A stretch of DNA of 64,000 bases from a virus, in the IMG/VR virus record IMGVR_UViG_3300028837_003833, positions 62,001-126,000 of that record. The stretch is one strand, 5' to 3'. This document shows, in pieces, positions 59,186 to 61,103 of this stretch. The stretch's first letter is position 1, and the number at the start of each line of letters is the position of its first letter. The position numbers and the translations under genes were made by a program. A model generated the notes under the pieces. The model was not told the origin of the DNA. It ran no database searches and was given only the letters and a program-made list of their open reading frames with translations.

Positions 59186-60277
59186 TTAAACTTTATCCCA
59201 AAGATCTTTTAATATAGACTTATCTTTCTTATTAGGACTAAAACTTACCTCTAAATTATTCTCATAATCATTTAAAAGTAGCTGTCGTACCTGCCTTCTA
59301 CAAGCACTCTCATCTTGGGGCTGTGTCTTGAATCTATCTATAAACTTATCCCTCTTATCCATAGGAGAAGTACTTAATAGATACTCCCTAAATTCATACC
59401 AAGTCTTAAATTTTTCAGGTAATTTACTAGTACTAAAAACACTATCCTCACCCGCGTATATAGACGCGACATGAATACCAGATATTCTTTTTACCAGCTT
59501 ACTAAATGTATCAGGCTCATATACTTGAAGATCACCTAAAATCTTGAAACTCTTCTCGTGTATAAGATTACTCACCCGCATAGTCTTATAAAAATTTTTA
59601 TTTGATCGATACATCTTATCATACACGGCATTATAGGGAAGATCATTATCCGCTATGTATTTCCAAACGTCTCCTACTCCCCAATCATAAAGAGGATAAA
59701 ATCTATAAGTATTTCTACCTGTAGTTTTGGTACTCCAATTAATATCCTTCCACCCTGGATTCTTGATAACTGACCTAAGCCTGTTTAAACTCTCCTCCGC
59801 CCGTAACCCTATAAAAAATGCTGTGTCAGGATTACTCTTCTCCATCCATTTAAAAAAACCATAAAACCTACTTGGATAACTAATGTCAATTGAATGTATA
59901 GCCAAAGGATCCTTATCCCTTACCCAAATCTCCCCCTCATCCCAAGCATAAAACATACACTCTCTATAAGATGTAGTGTTAGTCATATACAATGGAACCT
60001 GATACCACAAAGGATCTACAAGATCATGACTCATCATTCTTCTTATAAGATCTACACTACTTTGATATTCAGCCTCTTGATCAAGAAAAAATACTTTTAC
60101 TCTCCTATTTCTTCTTTCCGCTTCCCTTACAACAAGCCAATACAATGTTGTACTATCTTTACCACTACTAATAGAAACTATGATATCTTTAAAACTATCA
60201 AATACTATCGAAACCCTCTCCTGAGCTTTATGGAATACATTTTCTTCAAGGTATACCCGTTTAAGTTCTGGTAGCAT
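59186..60277 (-). CDS. PAPS-reductase-like protein (IbrA/DUF3440-like)
   Basis: 363 residues. PP-loop S38-G-K-D-S42 (ISSGKDSTTLYWLVV), then FFLDQEAEYQSSVDLI and DTAFFIGLRAEESLNRLR, with PLYDWGVGDVWKYIADNDLP: the layout of the adenine-nucleotide alpha-hydrolase/PAPS-reductase family. The C-terminal part (DKRDKFIDRFKTQPQ) may correspond to DUF3440. Its neighbours are a protein of unknown type and a ParB-domain protein, the pairing seen as IbrA-IbrB in E. coli and in some phages. Reaction (sulfur or nucleotide transfer) is not certain. Overlaps the upstream gene by 17 bases. Confidence 0.75.
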   Translation of the reverse strand: MLPELKRVYLEENVFHKAQERVSIVFDSFKDIIVSISSGKDSTTLYWLVVREAERRNRRVKVFFLDQEAEYQSSVDLIRRMMSHDLVDPLWYQVPLYMTNTTSYRECMFYAWDEGEIWVRDKDPLAIHSIDISYPSRFYGFFKWMEKSNPDTAFFIGLRAEESLNRLRSVIKNPGWKDINWSTKTTGRNTYRFYPLYDWGVGDVWKYIADNDLPYNAVYDKMYRSNKNFYKTMRVSNLIHEKSFKILGDLQVYEPDTFSKLVKRISGIHVASIYAGEDSVFSTSKLPEKFKTWYEFREYLLSTSPMDKRDKFIDRFKTQPQDESACRRQVRQLLLNDYENNLEVSFSPNKKDKSILKDLWDKV

Positions 60278-61103
60278 CCAGTAAAGTCCTTACAAACTCA
60301 TTTACATTATTTATATATTTGAAAAATTCCTTCTCTAATAAATCATCCACTTTTGCATCAGACACTACTAATGTCCGCTCACCAGATTTATATTGATCAT
60401 ATACTCTAAAAAGGTATGAAGAATTAAATCCTTTTTTAAGATCCGGTACCCTATCATTAATAAATTTTTTCAATTTTCTGGTTAAAATAATAGGGCTACC
60501 CTCTGTCTCAAATAACTGCTCCTTATATACCTGATAATCCTTTTTTATCTCTTCGGATAATTCTATTCTTTTCACGATAATATCATCATGAAATACCTCC
60601 TGCAGAGAAGTATCAGTAGCTACTGCCACTTTCTTAGCAAGCATGGAACAATCATATGGATTTACGTCCCCAATAACTTTAGCCCCCTGAAAAGCATAAC
60701 AATGGGGATACCCTAATAAACTTTTATCAAAAAAACTCCAGAGAAAATAACACCAATAAACATCCCTTTTTGTTAAAAAAGGATGCTCCTCAACTACTAA
60801 TTTATACCCCTTAAGAACAGTTTGATGCATATCAATGTTACGGTCCATTATATCGTTTAATCTAGGGTACTTTAATACAAAAAAATCATTTTCTGAGTTA
60901 TCCATAAACATTGGTATATTTACAGGATCCATAGTTTTTTCTAAAGGTAAAAAAGTATAGTCAGGTAAACTATCTTTTATAATATCTATATTAGGGCACT
61001 TTTTACCATAAACATAAAATTTACGTCCATAACCCTCGGAATACTTATTAATCTTATCAAGTTCATAGTTAAGATCGTCAGTTAAGATTACCCTACCCTT
61101 CAC
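60261..61103 (-). CDS. Unknown protein between ParB and PAPS-reductase-like genes
   Basis: 280 residues from a GTG at 61103, chosen because GGGAGG lies 6 bases upstream; ATG 61133 and 61160 would give longer products overlapping the ParB gene. The reading KGRVILTDDLNYELDKINKY is followed by FVLKYPRLNDIMDRNIDMHQ, PYDCSMLAKKVAVATDTSLQ and a helical C-terminus. No motif or family recognised. The tight overlap with both neighbours (11 and 17 bases) suggests that the three proteins work as one unit. Confidence 0.6.
   Translation of the reverse strand: MKGRVILTDDLNYELDKINKYSEGYGRKFYVYGKKCPNIDIIKDSLPDYTFLPLEKTMDPVNIPMFMDNSENDFFVLKYPRLNDIMDRNIDMHQTVLKGYKLVVEEHPFLTKRDVYWCYFLWSFFDKSLLGYPHCYAFQGAKVIGDVNPYDCSMLAKKVAVATDTSLQEVFHDDIIVKRIELSEEIKKDYQVYKEQLFETEGSPIILTRKLKKFINDRVPDLKKGFNSSYLFRVYDQYKSGERTLVVSDAKVDDLLEKEFFKYINNVNEFVRTLLDATRT

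Follow-up and report, generated by a model that had tools for sequence, protein, structure and literature searches.

A putative pseudo-SNF2 subunit encoded between ParB-like and PAPS-reductase-like genes of a viral gene cassette

Organisation of the locus

The window, that is the whole stretch of DNA analysed here, spans bases 62001-126000 (64,000 nucleotides) of a virus record that is 135,493 bases long (IMGVR_UViG_3300028837_003833). On its minus strand a capsid gene lies upstream of a cassette in which a gene here termed X is set between genes for a ParB fusion protein and a PAPS-reductase-like (PAPSR-like) protein.

62870..63754, minus strand: major capsid protein, Phage G-like, upstream of the cassette (phrog_2522, 3.9e-51)
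61093..62745, minus strand: LAGLIDADG_2 homing-endonuclease domain fused in frame to ParB (IbrB-like), 550 aa (PF03161, 7.5e-27, residues 83-242; PF02195, 3.2e-07, residues 392-475; phrog_2159, 6.1e-62)
61104..61115, minus strand: ribosome-binding site of X, GGGAGG, 6 nt ahead of the GTG
61093..61103, minus strand: overlap of the X start with the ParB stop, 11 nt (also 11 nt in L185)
60261..61103, minus strand: gene X, predicted pseudo-SNF2 subunit, 280 aa, GTG start at 61103
60261..60277, minus strand: overlap of the X stop with the PAPSR start, 17 nt (16 nt in L185, 20 nt in L183)
59186..60277, minus strand: PAPS-reductase-like PP-loop protein with DUF3440 (IbrA-like), 363 aa (PF01507, 1.1e-15; PF11922, 1.6e-12; phrog_2302, 6.3e-84)

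The sequence upstream of X reads CCTGGGAGGTATATA and is followed directly by the GTG. The initial annotation had described X as overlapping both partners and as having the best ribosome-binding site of the three genes, and both statements are borne out: the corresponding sites of the ParB gene (AGGA) and the PAPSR-like gene (AAGGA, farther off) are weaker by eye. Overlap with both neighbours suggests translational coupling. That annotation had also looked to conservation of the start and overlaps, and these recur in relatives (overlaps of 11 and 16 nt in L185, and of 4 and 20 nt in L183), but the strong GGGAGG site is not repeated in these two. An in-frame TTG at 61160, the first start in the list of open reading frames, has no support from relatives and was set aside. 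X is a genuine gene and more than a chance ORF, since relatives of 48-53% identity are found at the same place and pN (0.30-0.35) is below pS (0.73-0.75, near saturation). Among the X-family pairs, dN/dS lies between 0.10 and 0.33 in the six that were computable of 26 listed, and the codon comparisons demonstrate purifying selection on the family. The window protein contains 41 K+R against 44 D+E and is thus slightly acidic, with no net positive charge.

The PAPSR-like protein exceeds the Pfam cutoffs for both of its domains (PF01507, 58.5 bits against 22.5; DUF3440, 48 bits against 25), whereas it scores 31.4 bits against the NCBIfam PAPS reductase equivalog, for which the cutoff is 254.2. 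True PAPS reductases possess a catalytic cysteine motif. No invariant cysteine is found in the PAPSR-like family among 7 or 10 aligned proteins; one column is cysteine in at least 70% of the 10, and the window protein seems, by eye, to have no cysteine at that position. The SGKDS core of the PP-loop is conserved. By analogy with established PP-loop families, which provide the basis for expecting adenylation, a PP-loop core without an invariant cysteine makes the protein more likely to be an adenylating enzyme than a reductase. When three window proteins were scanned against PADLOC, it matched DndC, which in Dnd phosphorothioation systems has DndD and DndE as neighbours, at 1.1e-8.

In the ParB partner, the ParB_N domain scores 30.8 bits, above the cutoff of 26.3, and LAGLIDADG_2 forms the N-terminal part of the fusion, which is also present in L183/L184. 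The capsid protein is 74.8% identical to that of LR745208, a 485-kb uncultured phage, and 39.7% identical to that of Bacillus phage G; on these identities, the record probably represents part of the genome of a large, Phage G-like phage. In LR745208, the position directly downstream of the capsid gene, which in the window is the site of the cassette, is occupied by a 1,229-aa ORF (L146:13074-16763) that combines LAGLIDADG_2 stretches and a CGNR zinc finger with a weak match to DNA methylases. The site 3' of the capsid gene in that phage thus holds a homing-endonuclease fusion with other cargo. Elsewhere in the window are a 433-aa ORF with a lysine-rich APTKK repeat region (54339-55640) and a 529-aa ORF (55644-57233) with a C-x-C ... 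C-K-H pattern, which we take to be SWIM zinc finger-like; a similar-looking ORF is found at L146:22184-23749.

Relatives of X and their gene neighbourhoods

Searched against standard libraries, X stays below the cutoff of every curated family in Pfam and NCBIfam (with no match at all in the latter, and none to PF00176 in Pfam), and its matches in PHROGs and PADLOC are weak. At the level of curated families, the earlier statement that the product has no recognisable motif was accurate, and nothing emerged that would place X in a known family of separate function. RdgC (Pfam, E 0.17) and a type II methyltransferase (PADLOC, E 0.0042) were weak single matches without support in relatives, and an initial suspicion that X was clamp-loader-like was given up after relatives turned up. 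X has no match among 50,697 phage records, and its C-type relatives, described below, none in phages or plasmids. Viral-contig scans with X alone or the PAPSR-like protein alone, as well as two-sequence scans of viral and genome contigs, returned nothing new or merely a known relative. Unlike these, alignment-based scans were productive.

Relatives were found by scanning with the PAPSR-like protein and then with the proteins so retrieved. A scan seeded with the PAPSR subclade yielded close relatives in L185/L186 (E=2.5e-97), L183/L184 (8.5e-82) and L187 (9e-42), plus more distant ones. L183/L184 share the layout of the window (capsid gene, LAGLIDADG-ParB fusion, X, PAPSR), in L185/L186 the LAGLIDADG gene (so labelled from 47-48% identity to the window fusion) and the ParB gene are separate and adjoining, and the L187 contig carries a cassette-type helicase upstream. 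Between the window and L183 or L185, capsid proteins are about 80% identical and X proteins 48-53%. Two further X families, A and C, are found in the corresponding position, and a 344-aa relative lies between helicase and PAPSR in L017, which is one contig with L221. The order helicase, X, PAPSR, ParB is seen in L217, L221 and L222 and is frequent among the cassettes; as PAPSR, X and ParB are not always arranged in this way, a constant gene order was not used as a criterion. The ParB/PAPS-reductase island of the initial annotation is therefore real but larger than it was drawn, as sister cassettes often include an SNF2-type helicase with intact motifs and the ParB here carries a LAGLIDADG domain. 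Several cassettes (L155, L161, L165, L182, L218 and others) have a second PAPSR-like or ParB-like ORF beside the first. Between X and PAPSR, the A-type loci L157 and L160, and also L021 and L200, have one extra gene; that of L021 contains a DPPW motif, presumably DNA methyltransferase-like.

The linkage of X to the PAPSR-like gene is most fairly judged from searches seeded only with the sister families of X, although the loci counted partly overlap each other and earlier ones, being on the same contigs. In these, PAPSR directly follows C-type X in 53/54 viral loci and in 15/15 bacterial-genome loci (C-type seeds alone). For A-type X, it is the next gene in 15/18; of the rest, two have one gene between and one is at a contig end. 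In line with the earlier suggestion of a new component in this island, these counts describe a family without a name that is linked to the PAPSR-like gene. In a set partly drawn from PAPSR-seeded scans, 96 distinct X proteins longer than 200 aa were classed as 61 C-type, 25 A-type and 10 B-type, and in 92 of them a PAPSR ORF overlaps X or lies no more than 10 nt away. Two others have one gene between and one (L158) is at a contig end, while in L198 the PAPSR frame begins far inside X and so falls outside the distance rule.

Not every pair has an X. Loci with X are confined to a single PAPSR clade (18/23 inside, 0/65 outside), and because five loci of that same clade are without it, X is not essential for the PAPSR/ParB pair. 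Flavobacterium phages FCL-2 and 1H have the pair and an SNF2-like helicase without the third protein. Helicases were recognised at C-type loci in 33/54 viral (flanks of 3 kb) and 11/15 genome loci. In the window, no cassette-type SNF2 helicase adjoins X. A frame of 1,430 residues, at a distance of some 94 kb or more from the cassette, gives the single SNF2 match of the 135-kb record. The helicase of the window cassette may be absent, located in the unsequenced part, or borrowed. The distant frame (G000:C1:23495-27784, minus strand, outside the window) appears by eye to carry two intein-like insertions, of which the first lies at GK/T of motif I and the second follows DE of motif II.

Relationship of X to SNF2 ATPases

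A sensitive profile search, which the initial annotation had recommended, connected X to SNF2 helicases. The profile B2, built from the window protein plus nine relatives, matched that of 58 cassette helicases with an hhalign probability of 98.8% (E=6.8e-17, 298 columns), C-type X with 97.9% and A-type X with 97.1%, as against 0.2-0.3% for the unrelated PAPSR and ParB families used as controls. In HMMER (E<=1e-3, 8,194 ORFs, redundant loci included), the same profile recovered 92 ORFs also matched by the helicase profile, plus 50 C-type and 27 A-type proteins. With an older two-sequence profile, the real score was reached by 0/30 column shuffles (30 shuffles were made per pair, one fewer in two pairs). 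The signal depends on the breadth of the alignment. A smaller set, made up of the window protein and its three nearest relatives, matched A-type (96.6%) and C-type X (93.5%), and the helicases weakly at 8.7%; the window protein alone was near background against the helicase profile (score 22.5, best shuffle 21.6). A-type X is likewise weak against the helicases (2.7%), and the C-type protein of L110 scores 16.4 bits against PF00176, below the cutoff of 24.9. On these profiles, the helicase link of the window protein runs through longer, more distant relatives.

Such relatives are the longer B-type proteins of 340-374 aa (L216, L217, L245, L222 and, at 344 aa, L017), which retain the lobe-2 region that is largely missing from the window protein. 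There is a corresponding size series, from helicases of about 400-480 aa through these long forms to short B-type proteins of 274-282 aa.

The model of a C-type sister protein (pLDDT 94.9, pTM 0.90) shows a miniature two-lobed SNF2 core. SNF2 ATPases dominate its Foldseek matches (E down to 8.8e-7), and one is its best structural match (VIA Z 18.5, rmsd 3.4, 284/291 residues). The model of the window protein itself is poor (pLDDT 57), being confident about residues 165-225 and 241-280 only, and its matches in the PDB are weak (VIA Z at most 5.0), with no helicase at the top and with isw1 and XPB among unrelated ones; a PDB sequence search with a mixed alignment gave 0 matches. Thus the modelled two-lobed SNF2 fold is confirmed only for the C-type sister family.

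The motifs of the motor are lost. Walker A (motif I) is present in 0/75 X proteins (17 A-type, 56 C-type and 2 B-type including the window protein) against 57/58 helicases, and a loose pattern for the motif VI arginine finger in 0/17 A-type, 0/2 B-type and 4/56 C-type proteins, again against 57/58. The DE box (motif II) is replaced in the window protein by VLKYPRL; at its first position, 38 of 56 C-type proteins have N, 16 have D and 2 have S. As P-loop, DE box and arginine-finger motif are all lost, X should not hydrolyse ATP as a motor, to judge from its motifs. Together, profiles and models indicate that X is almost certainly a dead derivative of SNF2 proteins, and because it lacks the motor motifs it is classed as derived from the SNF2 ATPases and not as a member of them.

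Proposed role of X

X would be a pseudo-enzyme descended from a small SNF2/SWI2-type DNA translocase, with the order of both RecA-like lobes retained and the second lobe reduced. The initial annotation had suggested a specificity or effector subunit; for a helicase-derived, motor-dead protein, a function in DNA binding, docking or regulation is more fitting than that of an effector. Most likely, X binds both the PAPSR-like PP-loop enzyme and DNA, acting as a non-motor platform whose further partners would be ParB and, where sister cassettes encode one, the SNF2-type helicase. The complex would most likely adenylate or otherwise modify nucleic acid, and the presence of SNF2-type helicases and ParB in the cassettes points to DNA as the likely substrate. 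As an overall explanation, a pseudo-SNF2 platform of a nucleic-acid-modifying cassette is the best available and we regard it as reasonably probable. The specific role of X as the platform within a modifying complex is put forward tentatively.

The main rival is regulation, in which X and the IbrA- and IbrB-like proteins would control phage or host gene expression without modifying nucleic acid. Published accounts describe IbrA and IbrB as prophage transcriptional regulators or co-activators (PMC8813620, PMC4490671), which favours this reading. Nevertheless, the conserved SGKDS core of the PP-loop protein and the SNF2-type helicases of many sister cassettes argue for nucleic-acid chemistry, and the regulator label may have been handed on by annotation; we consider regulation unlikely, while keeping it in view. 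A second possibility is anti-restriction, with X imitating a host helicase and so blocking a defence system as a decoy. The motor-dead, divergent character of X and the slight acidity of the window copy would suit such a function, and inactive domains have been proposed as molecular decoys for defence-system proteins (PMC12839542). However, the tight linkage and overlap with PAPSR, at viral and bacterial loci alike, suggest an internal partner instead of a free-acting inhibitor, making a decoy rather improbable. Finally, that X is a functionless, decaying remnant of the cassette helicase, as the drop in size along the series might imply, is very improbable given the intact frames in all families, the pN well below pS, the residues that are invariant across divergent members and the intact helicase beside X in many loci.

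Returning to the platform reading, it is conceivable, though doubtful, that the four cassette products (helicase, X, PAPSR and ParB) together make up an undescribed phage machine for nucleic-acid modification, with X as a motor-dead SNF2 twin that places the PP-loop enzyme on DNA. On that view, the machine of the Phage G-like lineage would have turned into a capsid-linked unit carrying a homing endonuclease of its own. For one branch of a widespread and unexplained phage pair of the IbrA/IbrB-like type, a third component can now be named, and it would be a dead SNF2 module instead of an orphan. The cassette lends itself to expression and assay as a defined gene unit. The succession from intact helicase through long to short pseudo-helicase would clearly exemplify how a motor can become a non-motor subunit.

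Comparison with known systems

No description of X was recognised in the open-licence literature on the cassette or the protein, and its free-standing miniature form, its constant partner and the cassette itself appear to be undescribed in the literature searched. The closest relatives are the SNF2/SWI2 ATPases (PF00176, including the phrog_62 helicases of IbrA-type cassettes), with which X shares profile homology over both lobes and, in the C-type model, the two-lobed fold. Unlike them, X is without Walker A, DE box and motif VI, falls below the Pfam cutoff and is smaller, at about 250-374 aa against about 400-480 aa for the helicases of the cassettes.

Two other proteins offer parallels. The N-terminal SWI2/SNF2 domain of DndH is described as inactive and proposed to bind DNA, and the system is discussed there beside DNA phosphorothioation (PMC10853773). 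This motor-dead SNF2 lobe resembles X; however, it is one lobe in a large multidomain protein, whereas X is free-standing, two-lobed in the C-type and coupled to a PAPSR/DUF3440 protein. Utp25 is presented as a pseudohelicase whose helicase fold has dispensable catalytic motifs (PMC9539457); it shares with X the predicted helicase fold, but it is a relative of DEAD-box RNA helicases that functions in eukaryotic ribosome assembly. The partners of X are of the same kind as the IbrA/IbrB pair (PMC8813620, PMC4490671). An IbrA/IbrB-like pair occurs without X in many phages (70/88 loci), and X marks one subclade.
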